Positions 5,578 through 17,305 of a stretch of DNA of 45,320 bases are shown piece after piece. Source of the stretch: Chloroflexaceae bacterium (GTDB taxonomy: Bacteria; Chloroflexota; Chloroflexia; Chloroflexales; Chloroflexaceae); assembly GCA_012031225.1 (NCBI GenBank), contig JAAUTZ010000018.1, positions 1,369-46,688 on the forward strand. Reading direction: 5' to 3'. Below the pieces are notes generated by a model. It ran no database searches. It had not been told where the DNA came from and saw nothing but the letters and a program-made list of their open reading frames with translations. Every line of letters starts with the position of its first letter. The first letter of the stretch is position 1. The position numbers and the translations under genes are program-made.

Positions 5578-6453
5578 TTAACCGTTGCGCTTGAGGATGC
5601 CCGTGTGTTTGGCGTAGCGTTCCATGCGCCCAAACACATACAAGCCAAGCGGGATGGCAACCACTGCCGTGAGAGCCAACGGCAAGATATGACTCACCAT
5701 CAGATCGGCGGGGGTGGCTCCATCGAGCAAGCCGCGCCGCATCCCATCAAGCATGTACGTTGCCGGCGAGAGGTAGGCAATCGGCTGCAACCATTCGGGC
5801 AGCACCGTGATCGGGTAGTATACGCCGCTTACCAGCAAGATCAACGCCTTGATGATGTTGGTCATCTGAATGCCCTTCTCAGGCCAGAGCAGGGGCAACA
5901 CCGCTGCAACCAAGCCCAAGCCGATGAAGCCCAAGCTGCCCGCCAATGTCGCCAACGCCAATGTCGCAAAATTGGCGTTGCTCAGATCCACTTGAAACAT
6001 CAAGGCAAGCACCGTGAGGATAATCACGGTATGCACTGCGCCAAACAGCACGGCGAAGAGCGATTGCCCCAGCAGGTGCGCGGTGCGACTGACCGGAGCC
6101 ATGAAGGTGTACTCAATCGTGCCTTCCCAGCGTTCCCACTGAATCGCCTCGCTGGTCATATCAAAGACTATCGAGAGATAGTGCCAGACCACCGTGCCTA
6201 CAATCAGGTAGAGGATGAAGTAGCTCGTGGCAGCATCCGATAAGGCTTCGCCCGTGATTGAGCTAGCGGCTTTGGCAATGAAGGTGATCGAGATCGCATT
6301 GACAATCGAGTAGACAATCCACACCACTTCCCAACCCCAGTAGCGGCGCGTCAGAAAGAGATTGCGTTCGATGAAGGCATATGAGCTACGCATTTCGCGC
6401 AGCACGGTGGCTATCAGGCTCGGTTGGCTTGGTTGGTTCGGTACAGTGGCCAT
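5578..6453 (-). CDS. ABC-2 type transporter permease
   Basis: This integral membrane protein of 291 residues has six predicted helices, an amphipathic N-terminal segment (RNLFLTRRYWGWEVVW), the characteristic ABC-2 segment with SGVYYPITVLPEWLQPIAYLSP before the last helices, and a cytoplasmic positively charged end (RMERYAKHTGILKRNG). Such permeases export drugs, polysaccharides or lipids with a separate ATPase. No ATPase gene is adjacent in the window, so the partner must be encoded elsewhere. The start MATVPN is preferred because AAGGA lies 10 bases before it; ATGs further upstream have no ribosome site. It follows the glycosyltransferase-STAS gene on the same strand. Confidence 0.82.
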   Translation of the reverse strand: MATVPNQPSQPSLIATVLREMRSSYAFIERNLFLTRRYWGWEVVWIVYSIVNAISITFIAKAASSITGEALSDAATSYFILYLIVGTVVWHYLSIVFDMTSEAIQWERWEGTIEYTFMAPVSRTAHLLGQSLFAVLFGAVHTVIILTVLALMFQVDLSNANFATLALATLAGSLGFIGLGLVAAVLPLLWPEKGIQMTNIIKALILLVSGVYYPITVLPEWLQPIAYLSPATYMLDGMRRGLLDGATPADLMVSHILPLALTAVVAIPLGLYVFGRMERYAKHTGILKRNG

Positions 6454-11851: not shown

Positions 11852-12958
11852 ATGTTGAAACGCACGCCCCTCTACCAACGTCATACCGCACTCGGAGCGC
11901 GAATGATTGACTTTGGCGGGTGGGAAATGCCCGTTCAGTACAGTGGCTTGATGGCTGAGCATCAAGCTGTTCGCAATTCCGCCGGCTTGTTCGATATTAG
12001 CCATATGGGTCGCTTTAGTATCAGTGGGCACGACGCGCAACGCTTCCTGCAATACGTCGTAACGTGCGACATAAGCGGGCTGAGTGTGGGCCAATCGAGC
12101 TATGGGCTACTCTGCAACGATCAGGGCGGCATCATTGATGATGTATTCGTCTACTGCCTGCCAAGTGAGTACCTTGTTGTGGTCAATGCCTCCAACCGCG
12201 AGAAAGACTGGAACTGGCTGCAACGCCGCTCGACTGGCTTTGATGTAGATATGCAAGACCTCTCGGATCGCTGGGCAATGCTCGCCTTGCAGGGGCCGCA
12301 GGCTGAAGCCTTGTTCTGCAATTCGCCCACGATGCAACATACGGGGCTGGAGACGTTGCCCTTCCACGAGATCGCCCTGTTCGGCTTTTTCGGCGTGAAT
12401 GGGCTGATCGCCCGCACCGGCTACACCGGCGAAGATGGCTTCGAGATTTTCTGCGATGCCCACAGAGCCGAGCTAGTCTGGGATGCCCTGCTCGCACTTG
12501 GCCCGCCCGACAGCGTGCTGCCGTGTGGTCTGGGCGCACGCGACAGCACCCGCTTTGAAGCCTGCCTTGCGCTGTATGGCAACGAGATCAGCGAAGCCAC
12601 CAACCCGTATGAGGCCCGGCTGGGCTGGGTTGTCAAGCTCGATAAGGGCGACTTCATCGGTAGCACCGCCCTGCGCGAGATTAAGGCGGCGGGGGTGGAG
12701 CGCAAGCTGGTTGGCTTTGAACTGGCCGAGCGCGGCGTAGCTCGCGGCGGCTACCTGATCCACGATCTCAGCGGCCAGCCCGTCGGCCATGTCACCACAG
12801 GCATGCCCTCGCCCACCCTCAACAAGCCGCTGGGCATGGGCTATGTGCCGACGGCTCTGAGCACAGAGGGCAGCGAGTTCCATGTTATAATCCGCGAAAA
12901 GCCCGTGCGAGCCCGCGTCGTCAAGATGCCCTTCTACAAGCCGCGTTACAAGCGGTAA
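11852..12958 (+). CDS. gcvT: Glycine cleavage T protein (aminomethyltransferase)
   Basis: T protein moves the methylene group from the aminomethyl-lipoyl arm of H protein to tetrahydrofolate and releases ammonia. The length (368 residues) is standard. The N-terminus LYQRHTALGARMIDFGGWEMP, the SHMGRFSISG segment, the folate-site region RTGYTGEDGFEIF and ARDSTRFEACLALYGNEIS (with the usual LGARD-x-LR site reading STR) are all present, followed by the C-terminal barrel with VGHVTTGMPSPTLNKPLGMGYV. GAGAAGGAGA precedes the ATG. It is followed by gcvH after 133 bases. Confidence 0.95.
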   Translation: MLKRTPLYQRHTALGARMIDFGGWEMPVQYSGLMAEHQAVRNSAGLFDISHMGRFSISGHDAQRFLQYVVTCDISGLSVGQSSYGLLCNDQGGIIDDVFVYCLPSEYLVVVNASNREKDWNWLQRRSTGFDVDMQDLSDRWAMLALQGPQAEALFCNSPTMQHTGLETLPFHEIALFGFFGVNGLIARTGYTGEDGFEIFCDAHRAELVWDALLALGPPDSVLPCGLGARDSTRFEACLALYGNEISEATNPYEARLGWVVKLDKGDFIGSTALREIKAAGVERKLVGFELAERGVARGGYLIHDLSGQPVGHVTTGMPSPTLNKPLGMGYVPTALSTEGSEFHVIIREKPVRARVVKMPFYKPRYKR

Positions 12959-13091
12959 GCACCGGTGGCATTGCGCCGCCGCCAGCGTCTACCCGTCTCG
13001 GCTCCCCATTGGCGGGGATGTGTCCACCGGACAACCGATAGCTAGCCCAAGCAGAGGACAGAGCAAAGCATTAACTAAGGAGGCATACCTG

Positions 13092-13481
13092 ATGCAGTAC
13101 AACTTACCCGCAGATTTACAGTATGTTGAGACAGATGAGTGGCTACGGATCGAAGGCGATGAAGCCATCGTCGGCATCACCGATTACGCCCAGAGTGCGC
13201 TCGGTGATATTGTCTTTCTCGAACTGCCCGAAGTTGGCGATACCTTTACCGCTGGGCAGACCTACGGCGTGATTGAATCGGTCAAGGCTTCGTCCGATCT
13301 GTATGCCCCCGTAGATTGCGAAGTGCTCGCCGTCAATAGCCCTTTGATTGACAATCAAGAGCCAATCAACAGCGATCCCTACGGCGATGGTTGGATGCTG
13401 CGGATCAAGATCACCGGCGGCACCGATCAGCTGCTCGATGTTGCGGCCTACACCAAATCAGTGGAAGAGCGCGACCACTAA
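13092..13481 (+). CDS. gcvH: Glycine cleavage H protein
   Basis: H protein is the lipoylated shuttle that carries the aminomethyl group between P, T and L proteins. The 129-residue sequence has the lipoyl-lysine context GVIESVKASSDLYAPV (Lys65), the GITDYAQSALGDIVFLELP strand region, and the C-terminal NSDPYGDGWMLRIKI. The start MQYNLP is set by AAGGAGG 8 bases upstream; an in-frame extension of 24 codons has no support. It is followed by a separate promoter and hairpin before gcvPA, so T-H and P may be transcribed separately. Confidence 0.95.
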   Translation: MQYNLPADLQYVETDEWLRIEGDEAIVGITDYAQSALGDIVFLELPEVGDTFTAGQTYGVIESVKASSDLYAPVDCEVLAVNSPLIDNQEPINSDPYGDGWMLRIKITGGTDQLLDVAAYTKSVEERDH

Positions 13482-13636: not shown

Positions 13637-14971
13637 ATGTCTCACTACATTTCGATTACTGAGGCAGAACGACAGGCAATGCTTGCCGCAATCGGGGTCG
13701 CGTCCGTTGCTGATCTGTTTGTAGATGTGCCTGCCGATCTGCGCTTTCCCCCACTCGCGCTGCCGCCCGCCATGTCGGAGCCGGAACTCCAGCGCGAACT
13801 GCGCCGCCTGAGCGGGCAGAATGCTAACGCCACGACCCACAGCATCTTTCTCGGCGCGGGGGTCTACAACCACTTTGTCCCCGCTGCCGTAGACCAAATC
13901 TTGCGGCGCGGCGAATACTACACGGCTTACACCCCCTACCAACCCGAAGTTAGTCAAGGCACGCTGCAAGCCGTGTTTGAGTATCAGAGCATGATGGCCG
14001 ACTTGACCGGCATGGATGTCGTCAATGCCTCGCACTACGACGGGGGCACAGCCATTGCCGAAGCCGCAATTATGGCGCTCAATGTCACCCGCAAGCGCAA
14101 CCGCCTTGTGGTCGCACGCGGGCTGCACCCGCAATATCGGGCCGTGCTGCGTACCTATATGCAAAGCCTCAATCTTGAGATCGTCGGCGATGACGACCCC
14201 ACTATCAGCCTTGACGATCTGGTCAAGATGGTGGACGAGAACACCGCGGCCCTGTTCCTGCAATCGCCCGATTTCTTGGGCAAGCTGCACGATCTGCGCG
14301 GGATTGCCGACAAGGTGCATGCCAAAGGTGCGCTGCTGGTCGTGCATTTCGATCCGATTGGGCTAGCCATGTTCCAAACGCCCGGTGCAGTCGGTGCAGA
14401 TATTGCCACCGGCGAAGGCCAGCCGCTTGGCATCGGCATGAACTACGGCGGTCCGTATCTGGGCATCTTTGCCGCCCGCCAGAAAGATGTGCATAAGATT
14501 GCTGGGCGCATCGTTGGTGCAACCCGCGACGTAGATGGCGAGCTAGCCTATGCGCTCACCCTGCGGGCCCGCGAACAGGACATTCGCCGCGAACGGGCAA
14601 CGAGCAACATCTGCACCAATCAAGGCTTGATGGCTCTCGCCGCAACGGTCTACATGAGCCTGATGGGCCGGCAAGGCTTGCGCCGGGTGGCCGAGCTGTG
14701 CTACCACCGCGCCCACTACGCCGCCACCCAGATCGCCCAGTTGCCCGGCTATCAGGTAGACCTGAACCAGCCCTTCTTCAAGGAATTTGTGGTGCAGTGC
14801 CCGCGTCCGGTTGCCGCAATCAACGCCACGCTCCGCACGCACGGCATCATTGGCGGCTACGATCTAGCACAGGATGAGCCGCAGCTGGGCCACGCCATGC
14901 TGCTCGCCGTAACCGAGCTGAACAGCAAAGCCGATATTGATCAGCTAGTGGACGTGCTGCGCGAGGGATAG
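13637..14971 (+). CDS. gcvPA: Glycine dehydrogenase (decarboxylating) subunit 1
   Basis: This is the N-terminal half of the split P protein, which together with GcvPB decarboxylates glycine with PLP. Its 444 residues match the family. Landmarks are SHYISITEAERQAMLAAIGV, FLGAGVYNHFVPAAVDQIL, YYTAYTPYQPEVSQGTLQ, GMNYGGPYLGIFA and RRERATSNICTNQGL. AGAAAG precedes the ATG. In this organism the second subunit does not follow directly: two xis genes (xisH after only 8 bases) intervene. Confidence 0.96.
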   Translation: MSHYISITEAERQAMLAAIGVASVADLFVDVPADLRFPPLALPPAMSEPELQRELRRLSGQNANATTHSIFLGAGVYNHFVPAAVDQILRRGEYYTAYTPYQPEVSQGTLQAVFEYQSMMADLTGMDVVNASHYDGGTAIAEAAIMALNVTRKRNRLVVARGLHPQYRAVLRTYMQSLNLEIVGDDDPTISLDDLVKMVDENTAALFLQSPDFLGKLHDLRGIADKVHAKGALLVVHFDPIGLAMFQTPGAVGADIATGEGQPLGIGMNYGGPYLGIFAARQKDVHKIAGRIVGATRDVDGELAYALTLRAREQDIRRERATSNICTNQGLMALAATVYMSLMGRQGLRRVAELCYHRAHYAATQIAQLPGYQVDLNQPFFKEFVVQCPRPVAAINATLRTHGIIGGYDLAQDEPQLGHAMLLAVTELNSKADIDQLVDVLREG

Positions 14972-14979
14972 CCCAGAAT

Positions 14980-15438
14980 ATGCCCCAACGCGATGCCCAT
15001 CACGATATTGTCAAACGGGCATTGATCAAGGCTGGCTGGCACATCACTGCCGAACAATACGTGTTGTCATATGACAACGTATATGCGTTTGTTGATCTGG
15101 CTGGCGTACATCGTACTGCTCCTACTTCATCAGCATTGATGGGGTTCCATCGGGAAAATGACAAAATTGCTGTGGAAGTAAAGGAGTTTCGAGGTTCTAT
15201 CGTTCGGAACTTCCAACAAGCTATCGGACAATACATACTCTATCGGTTACTTTTGAGTGATTTTGAGCCAGACAGAGAATTGTATATGGCGGTCACGACT
15301 ACCGTCTACGACAACATTTTTGATCGCCCTATCGGACAACTTGTGTTGCGTGGTGTTCCCATCAATCTTATCGTGGTGGATGCAATGACAGAGGAAATAC
15401 AGCAATGGATCAAACCCACACCTACCGCATCGCCTTGA
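14980..15438 (+). CDS. xisH: XisH family protein (PD-(D/E)XK-like)
   Basis: XisH was named in Anabaena as a factor controlling excision of the fdxN element; family structures have a restriction-endonuclease-like fold. The 152-residue protein has the family N-terminus (MPQRDAHHDIVKRALIKAGW) and a PD-(D/E)XK-style triad: Asp39 in YAFVDLAG, and Glu66 and Lys68 in KIAVEVKEF, followed by FQQAIGQYILYR. The proposed nuclease residues are therefore intact. It sits 8 bases after gcvPA with GAGGGA upstream and overlaps xisI by 34 bases. The sequence is more AT-rich than the gcv genes around it, which suggests transfer. Its real target and role are unknown; no fdxN-type element is visible here. Confidence 0.88.
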   Translation: MPQRDAHHDIVKRALIKAGWHITAEQYVLSYDNVYAFVDLAGVHRTAPTSSALMGFHRENDKIAVEVKEFRGSIVRNFQQAIGQYILYRLLLSDFEPDRELYMAVTTTVYDNIFDRPIGQLVLRGVPINLIVVDAMTEEIQQWIKPTPTASP

Positions 15439-15764
15439 AGCAGGTGCTGGAGCAGTATGCCCAACACCATCCGACCCCGAATAATGGTGCAATCCGAACT
15501 GATCTCATCTGTGATCCAGAACGTGACTGCTACGCACTTATGAGTGTGGGTTGGAATGAACACCGGCGCATCTTTGCACCGATCTTCTATGCCATGTTGC
15601 GGCATGGTCAAATCATCCTTGAACACGATGGATTAGGCTATGGCATATCCGCCGATCTGGTGGCTGCGGGAGTAGCACCTACCGACATTATCTGGGCATG
15701 GGAGCAATCCGATCCACCTGTCAGCTATGCCACCTACCTGAGCGAGCAAGCCGTCATCGTATAA
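15405..15764 (+). CDS. xisI: XisI family protein
   Basis: XisI is the obligate neighbour of XisH. The 119-residue protein has the family pattern: a YRIALKQVLEQYAQ helix at the start, then LICDPERDCYALMSVGWNEHRRI, IILEHDGLGYGISADLVAAGV and a C-terminal YATYLSEQAVIV. It begins inside xisH in another frame with GAGGAAA upstream, so the two are translationally linked. It is followed after 56 bases by gcvPB. The pairing and overlap suggest a two-component unit such as an effector with its partner; a toxin-antitoxin or defence role is only a guess. Confidence 0.88.
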   Translation: MDQTHTYRIALKQVLEQYAQHHPTPNNGAIRTDLICDPERDCYALMSVGWNEHRRIFAPIFYAMLRHGQIILEHDGLGYGISADLVAAGVAPTDIIWAWEQSDPPVSYATYLSEQAVIV

Positions 15765-15820
15765 GCAATGGTATTCGCCCCCGCTGCCGCCGTGCAGCGT
15801 CTATCTAGAAGGTAAACTCA

Positions 15821-17305
15821 ATGTCAGTGTACAACAGTGAACCACCAATTTACGAACTGTCCCGCACCGGCAAGATCGGCGCGAACCTGCCCGCGCTCGA
15901 TGTGCCCGCCGCCGCCCTGCCGCCGCACCTGCTGCGCGAGGATGAGCTGGCCGGCTTCCCCGAACTGAGCGAAACCGAAGTGATCCGCCACTTCACACGG
16001 ATCAGCCAGCGCAACGTCTGCATTGATACGGTGATGTATCCGCTTGGCTCCTGCACGATGAAGTACAACCCCAAGCTGCACGAAGAAGCCGCCCGCTTGC
16101 CCGGCTTTGCCGCCGCCCACCCCATGCAGGATCAGAGCCTGTCGCAGGGCGCACTCGCGCTGATGTATCAGTTGCAGCACTATCTGGGCGAGATCAGCGG
16201 CTTCGATGCCGTCTCGCTTCAGCCAGCGGCAGGGGCACAAGGCGAATTCGCAGGCATTCTGGTATTTCGCGCCTACCACCTCAGTCGCGGCGATGTAGAC
16301 CGCACCGAAGTGCTCGTGCCAGATGCAGCCCACGGCACAAACCCAGCCACCGCCGCCATGTCTGGCTTCAAGGTGATTGAGGTCAAGAGCGATGCGCGGG
16401 GCAACGTAGATATGGACGACCTGAAGAGCAAGCTCTCGCCGCGCACCGTCGGCATGATGCTGACCAACCCGAACACGGTGGGGCTATTCGAGGAGCAGAT
16501 CGTCGAAGTCTCGCGGCTCGTGCATGCAGCGGGCGGCTTGATGTACGGCGATGGAGCCAACTTCAACGCCATTCTCGGCATTGCCAAGCCGGGCCAAGTC
16601 GGCTTCGACTTTATGCACTACAACCTGCACAAAACCTTCACCACCCCGCACGGCGGCGGTGGCCCCGGTAGCGGCGCAGTCGGCTGCACGGCCGCCCTTG
16701 CGCCGTTCCTGCCCGGACCCATCGTGCGCGAGGCTGAGCAAGCCGGTACGTATGAGCTGTTTATGCCCGAACAGAGCATCGGGCGGCTGAAGACGTTTCA
16801 GGGCAACTTCGGCATGCTCGTGCGGGCGTGGACGTACATTCGCACGCTCGGCGAGTATGGCTTGCGCGAAGTCTCCGAGACGGCGGTGCTCAATGCCAAC
16901 TACGTCCGGACCCAACTGCAAGACCTCTACCCAGTGGCAATTGACCGGATCTGCATGCACGAGGCGGTACTGCGCGGGCAGATTGCCGGAGCGCAGGGTA
17001 TCCGCACACTCGATATTGCCAAGCGGCTGATTGACTTCGGCATCCACCCCCCAACGGTCTACTTCCCCTTGATCGTGCCTGAAGCCCTGATGATCGAGCC
17101 AACCGAAACGGAGAGCAAAGTCAACATGGATCGTTTCATTGCGGTGATGCGCCAGATCGCTAGTGAAGCCGTCGAAACGCCCGCCGTGCTACACAATGCG
17201 CCCACCAACGCCCCAGTCCGGCGGCTCGATGAGGTGCGTGCCGCTCGCAAGCCGATCCTGCGCTACAACGCCGAGAAGTTCGCCGAGCTACGGCGCGGCG
17301 AGTAG
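15821..17305 (+). CDS. gcvPB: Glycine dehydrogenase (decarboxylating) subunit 2
   Basis: This is the C-terminal, PLP-binding half of the split P protein (494 residues). The PLP lysine is Lys271 in MHYNLHKTFTTPHGGGG, followed by the glycine-rich GGGPGSGAVG. YPLGSCTMKYNPK near residue 70 and LMIEPTETESK near 425 are family signatures. AGAAGGTAAA precedes the ATG. The gene closes the gcv cluster; the L protein (dihydrolipoyl dehydrogenase) is not in the window. Confidence 0.96.
   Translation: MSVYNSEPPIYELSRTGKIGANLPALDVPAAALPPHLLREDELAGFPELSETEVIRHFTRISQRNVCIDTVMYPLGSCTMKYNPKLHEEAARLPGFAAAHPMQDQSLSQGALALMYQLQHYLGEISGFDAVSLQPAAGAQGEFAGILVFRAYHLSRGDVDRTEVLVPDAAHGTNPATAAMSGFKVIEVKSDARGNVDMDDLKSKLSPRTVGMMLTNPNTVGLFEEQIVEVSRLVHAAGGLMYGDGANFNAILGIAKPGQVGFDFMHYNLHKTFTTPHGGGGPGSGAVGCTAALAPFLPGPIVREAEQAGTYELFMPEQSIGRLKTFQGNFGMLVRAWTYIRTLGEYGLREVSETAVLNANYVRTQLQDLYPVAIDRICMHEAVLRGQIAGAQGIRTLDIAKRLIDFGIHPPTVYFPLIVPEALMIEPTETESKVNMDRFIAVMRQIASEAVETPAVLHNAPTNAPVRRLDEVRAARKPILRYNAEKFAELRRGE

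Follow-up and report, generated by a model that had tools for sequence, protein, structure and literature searches.

XisH and XisI (PF08814 and PF08869; structures 2okf, 2inb, 3d7q and 2nwv) are abundant in Cyanobacteria and present in many other phyla, and the sole task known for them is one heterocyst excision event, that of the fdxN element by the XisF-XisH-XisI system. A role of the pair beyond heterocyst DNA excision is still to be disclosed, according to the authors of PMC2674450. In Lyngbya majuscula, xisHI is located upstream of hoxW and is co-transcribed with it, and a Uma2 gene lies nearby; the authors left the function of this pair open (PMC2674450).

Two other groups of genes share features with xisHI. 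Uma2 (PF05685, COG4636), a likely solo toxin (PMC2701414), resembles XisH in that both are dispersed accessory PD-(D/E)XK genes of Cyanobacteria and Chloroflexi and both occur in the same slot of glycine-cleavage (gcv) operons. However, Uma2 belongs to a different family, has no XisI-like partner and is often found as tandem paralogs. Type II toxin-antitoxin (TA) systems are also composed of two small overlapping genes, are gained and lost, are present on plasmids, and show the same pattern of orphans, in which a solitary second gene is common and a solitary first gene nearly absent. XisHI differs from them in that XisI belongs to no named antitoxin family and the putative toxin gene comes first.

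Here, we describe an xisHI pair between the two glycine decarboxylase subunit genes of a Chloroflexaceae bacterium. The window, i.e., the whole stretch of DNA that was analyzed, comprises 45,320 nucleotides of contig JAAUTZ010000018.1. The family is a known one in an unusual location, and the insertion is not fresh; the idea that the cassette encodes a poison and its antidote is worth a bench test. What is new is the asymmetric decay of XisH and XisI, which, as far as sequences can tell, suggests a function. One-sided decay provides a specific and cheap hypothesis, namely that a cell containing XisH is harmed when XisI is missing. Were this borne out, a common family could be interpreted and its role in Anabaena read anew. 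In addition, the gcvPA-gcvPB slot shows that cassettes of the XisHI or Uma2 type can be accommodated in an operon of central metabolism that stays intact.

The xisHI pair in the glycine-cleavage operon

The following features were assigned in and around the cassette.

11852 to 12958, + strand: gcvT, aminomethyltransferase, first gene of the glycine-cleavage cluster (Pfam GCV_T, GCV_T_C)
13083 to 13481, + strand: gcvH, lipoyl carrier protein (Pfam GCV_H)
13637 to 14971, + strand: gcvPA, glycine decarboxylase subunit 1 (Pfam GDC-P, 420.9 bits; 95% identical in congener G001)
14963 to 14968, + strand: GAGGGA, Shine-Dalgarno-like hexamer in the final gcvPA codons, 11 nt 5′ of the xisH start (from sequence; role putative)
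14975 to 15779, + strand: cassette with its edges, no counterpart in G001 (alignment with G001; repeat scan)
14980 to 15438, + strand: xisH, predicted PD-(D/E)XK nuclease, 152 aa (Pfam PF08814; structure model; alignments)
15405 to 15764, + strand: xisI, predicted partner or antidote, 119 aa (Pfam PF08869; PDB relative 3d7q; alignment)
15780 to 15820, + strand: native gcvPB leader with ribosome site CTAGAAGG at 15805-15812 (near-identical in G001; CTAGAAAG in other Chloroflexaceae)
15821 to 17305, + strand: gcvPB, glycine decarboxylase subunit 2 (Pfam GcvP2_C, 93.1 bits)

The ORF coordinates agreed exactly with the original prediction, which had placed the pair 8 nt after gcvPA (stop at 14971) and 56 nt before gcvPB (start at 15821) on the same strand. 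Both family assignments were far above the profile cut-off of 25 bits (139.5 bits for XisH and 78.3 bits for XisI, whose gene directly follows xisH). The two genes are in the xisH-xisI order common to the family, and their ORFs overlap by 34 nt; small, adjacent and both on the + strand, they have a layout like that of type II TA genes. Each is present in one copy in this genome, whereas Uma2 had 26 matches. The cassette consists of xisH and xisI only, with no terminal repeats, target-site duplication or recombinase of its own, and neither the repeat scan nor the G001 alignment revealed direct or inverted repeats of note around it. Unlike in the fdxN excision system, no recombinase or excised element is present at the locus; the pair instead lies inside a glycine-cleavage operon.

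The + strand showed no sequence resembling a terminator or a promoter in the interval from gcvPA to gcvPB. Operon read-through across xisHI is therefore plausible, and gcvPA, xisHI and gcvPB may be co-transcribed. The best precedent for such a position is the Lyngbya pair, which also lies beside metabolic genes. However, xisH in Lyngbya is transcribed first, from a promoter of its own that has been mapped (PMC2674450), whereas xisH in the window begins just downstream of gcvPA. The Shine-Dalgarno-like hexamer is present in the empty congener as well, so translation of xisH may rely on a ribosome site provided by gcvPA. No Rfam match to a glycine riboswitch was detected close to the gcv operon.

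The structure model of XisH (pLDDT 85) matched solved XisH structures 2okf and 2inb with a Foldseek TM score of 0.92. Weaker matches included the nucleases Card1, Cas4 and Nt.BspD6I, none of which was significant alone. D39, E66 and K68, which had been pointed out as a retained PD-(D/E)XK pattern, were invariant across 25 aligned XisH sequences from several phyla, and together with the model they suggest nuclease activity. The XisI model had a pLDDT of 84. Compared to the rest of the family, XisH in the window contains an insert of ~8-10 residues beside the active site, between D39 and E66, and XisI lacks the usual C-terminal tail.

The cassette is AT-richer than the gcv genes, as had been noted. 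GC content was 0.46 in xisH (GC3 0.46), 0.53 in xisI (GC3 0.57) and 0.54-0.62 in the gcv genes (GC3 0.63-0.78). Such a composition could be taken as a sign of recent arrival. However, eleven XisH genes of relatives, including the copy in a second Chloroflexaceae genus (G025, GC3 0.47), had GC3 of 0.47-0.58 within flanks whose GC content was 0.51-0.71. Low GC was thus common to XisH of all relatives tested, and composition does not date the insertion.

Occupancy of the gcvPA-gcvPB slot and history of the cassette

In congener G001, the gcvPA-gcvPB spacer was 146 nt long and carried no cassette, which is consistent with the proposal that xisHI is an accessory insertion and indicates that the pair is dispensable in this congener. 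Homology between the window and G001 stopped at 14974/14975 and restarted at 15780, such that the gcvPB leader with its ribosome site was preserved; ~105 unrelated nt in G001 lie opposite the cassette segment. No cassette remnants above shuffles were found in the empty slots of G001, G011, G009, G018, G016 and G002.

In contrast to the idea of a recent insertion, XisHI occupied the same slot in the second genus, G025, and the cassette is therefore not simply recent. The window and G025 copies share the 34-nt overlap (13 nt in most other pairs of the family) and the D39-E66 insert, and they were sisters in both the XisH tree (100/97) and the XisI tree (100/99). They were also sisters in a joint tree with cyanobacterial relatives (99/93) and when more relatives were included (92/90). 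Their nearest relatives outside Chloroflexaceae were found in Cyanobacteria and one Pirellulales bacterium, some of them plasmid-borne; these sequences were recovered by an alignment-based contig scan, whereas a scan with the single window protein gave none.

AU tests rejected neither of the alternatives in which G000 (p 0.17) or G025 (p 0.38) is nearer to cyanobacterial XisHI. A single arrival in Chloroflexaceae followed by several losses is therefore favored but not proven. It comes at a cost, because the two XisHI hosts were not sisters in the GcvPA+GcvPB tree and approximately five losses would be required. This cost and the AU tests leave room for one XisH subfamily having arrived twice, independently, with the slot acting as a targeted docking site, all the more so as the slot also took in Uma2, pentapeptide and kinase genes. 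Nevertheless, given that the best trees place the two copies as sisters and that none of 80 XisH loci from other bacteria had a gcv gene nearby, we consider two arrivals unlikely. This question concerns origin only.

Among 26 Chloroflexaceae with a readable slot, genes assigned by Pfam were XisHI (2 genomes), Uma2 (5), an APH-like kinase with Uma2 (4), the kinase alone (8) and a pentapeptide protein (1), and the remaining 6 slots had no gene. A kinase gene was present in most slots of family f4, and gcvPA and gcvPB almost abutted each other in families f2 and f3. These varied contents suggest that the gcvPA-gcvPB junction tolerates cargo and that XisHI is one tenant among several. Uma2 was seen in the slot of several other Chloroflexaceae genera (L099, L085, L091 and L086), including one tandem pair. 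In the G025 locus (L096), gcvPA and xisH are separated by 393 nt that contain several palindromes and repeats of GTAACTC/GAGTTAC; this stretch is absent from the window. G018 has an XisHI pair ~2.3 kb upstream of gcvPA, but it lies on the other strand, separated by an unrelated ORF, and was treated as a coincidence.

The original prediction had the pair hiding in a house-keeping operon. It is indeed co-directional with the operon here, but this is not a general habit of XisHI, since only 6 of 72 other loci (~8%) were tightly embedded in same-strand gene runs.

Asymmetric decay of xisH and xisI

Four near-complete cyanobacterial genomes, which contain from about ten to several dozen copies of XisH/XisI each, provided 33 intact XisH-XisI pairs. 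We also found 14 loci in which XisH was broken and XisI intact, and 21 at which only XisI was present, in one case interrupted by an internal stop. Thus, XisI occurred 35 times with a broken XisH or none, and the reverse, an intact XisH without an intact XisI, was not observed (0/33). The same trend was evident in Chloroflexales. Both genes were whole at 26 loci (two of which are of divergent types), 13 loci had a broken XisH and a whole XisI, and 11 had a whole XisI alone, compared with a single whole XisH accompanied by a broken XisI (1/27 XisH). Retention of the putative toxin gene without the putative antitoxin gene, which is not expected in TA systems, was therefore limited to this one case in the two sets, an indirect sign of a TA-like pair. 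In TA families already known, antitoxins without a toxin partner occur in large numbers (PMC7192599).

Plasmids showed a similar picture. XisI was present in 46 records and XisH in 37, with nine XisI lacking an XisH match and no case of the reverse. On inspection, eight of the nine had a whole XisI and no whole XisH, and in one both genes were broken; in addition, plasmid pLBX carried a frameshifted XisH next to a whole XisI. Even among 80 loci chosen by XisH, a sample biased towards whole XisH, one-sided breaks affected XisH five times and XisI not once, and one locus (L219) had a whole XisH with no detectable XisI.

When the sets were pooled, one-sided breaks numbered 33 in XisH versus 1 in XisI (p = 7e-8 with gene length allowed for), and an intact XisH was present at 1/19 loci with a broken XisI versus 59/117 loci with an intact one (Fisher p = 1e-4), p values that serve only as guides because independence does not hold for all loci and the calls of intactness were based on profile coverage. 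It seems from these sequences that an intact XisH is not tolerated without XisI.

Solitary XisI genes include a conserved family without XisH (L286, L287 and L294; open frames of 113-146 aa) in several genomes of family f3, which are probably relatives of Herpetosiphon. Two plasmid XisI loci (L298, 857-1824; L299, 851-1818) have a 642-nt gene at the expected xisH position, which overlaps xisI by 4 nt and is annotated as N-6 DNA methylase or hypothetical. Its product is a possible alternative partner of XisI.

Candidate functions of the pair

We propose that XisHI is a nuclease-antidote pair, similar to TA systems, that rides in a metabolic operon, and we assign this reading a probability of approximately 0.55, with toxicity as its prediction. 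It builds on the empty slot with a kept gcvPB leader, the slot shared with G025, the nuclease fold, residues D39, E66 and K68, and one-sided decay. XisH would act as a PD-(D/E)XK nuclease whose activity, if left unchecked, damages the cell that makes it, and XisI would bind it and hold it in check. The cassette may have reached an ancestor of Chloroflexaceae in a single arrival from a lineage today found mostly in Cyanobacteria, and settled in the permissive gcvPA-gcvPB slot, where it left the gcvPB leader intact and would be read with the operon. Most descendants would then have lost it again.

Several observations count against this proposal. The cassette proteins had no match in PADLOC-DB at E values up to 1, and a TA survey does not have XisH among its named families (PMC2701414). 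The Anabaena pair is described as controlling fdxN-element excision, not killing (Ramaswamy et al. 1997, as cited in PMC2674450). Our literature search found no paper describing XisHI as a TA pair; XisH and XisI do appear in one list of the domains found in predicted eCIS-associated toxins from Moorena (PMC11297309). Finally, the same asymmetry would be expected if XisI were useful without XisH.

The last point is the basis of the main alternative, in which XisI has its own function, e.g., as a regulator with other partners, and XisH is dispensable or dependent on XisI; selection would retain XisI, and XisH would be lost neutrally, with no toxicity involved. The many solitary intact XisI, including the conserved orphan family of f3 genomes, and the plasmid XisI genes that are immediately preceded by another gene in place of xisH are consistent with this possibility. 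However, XisI decays almost only where XisH is already gone, as the proportions of 1/19 and 59/117 illustrate. This dependence on prior XisH loss speaks against an own function of XisI without excluding it, and we regard such a function as somewhat unlikely.

Anti-phage defense, with XisH cutting invading DNA and XisI protecting the host, would be in line with the PD-(D/E)XK fold, the gain and loss pattern, and the R-M-like, Uma2 and PIN genes that neighbor XisHI on some plasmids. On the other hand, the cassette has no modification gene and no PADLOC match, and XisH was absent from 50,697 phage records and its loci were limited to two in viral contigs, so that nothing points to an arms race or to capture. 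We regard this role as very unlikely. The suggestion of a selfish or defense pair gained support from the one-sided decay of XisH; no link to phages or known defense systems emerged.

The least probable role is that of a helper of a serine recombinase in element excision. In its favor are the family name, a single large serine recombinase encoded in this genome (PF07508, contig C205) and the genetics of Anabaena (as cited in PMC2674450 and PMC4853749). Against it, a similar recombinase was near just 1/169 XisH/XisI loci, no element or att-like repeats were found in or around the cassette, and gcvPA and gcvPB are both whole. An fdxN-type role had been excluded for this locus at the outset; it is better called unlikely, as the genome does encode that recombinase, on another contig.

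A broader form of the nuclease-antidote proposal is tentative and falls somewhat short of even odds. XisHI could represent a large unrecognized addiction family, with a PD-(D/E)XK toxin and an XisI antidote, across Cyanobacteria, Chloroflexota, Planctomycetota and others, in which fdxN excision is a derived side job. In Chloroflexaceae, one lineage of the family would ride in the gcv operon, where it could be lost cleanly only by a deletion precise enough to leave the gcvPB leader untouched.

Two sequence features set apart the subfamily to which the window pair belongs. Ordinary XisI carries a C-terminal R..T.(F/Y)A tail, which is missing here (15690-15761 region), and ordinary XisH has an E after DLGA, which is missing as well. 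The two change together in this subfamily, suggesting that the tail may meet XisH near the active-site loop. In four lineages, XisH was broken at or next to the codon after DLGA, by in-frame TAA stops in three and a frameshift in one (L186, L209 and L215 near 6126-6136; L306 near 1617-1635); this recurrence may reflect chance, a mutational hotspot or recoding. In Achromatium, XisH (L220, 375-675) was split by a ~300-bp insertion with inverted repeats, and the accompanying XisI was whole.
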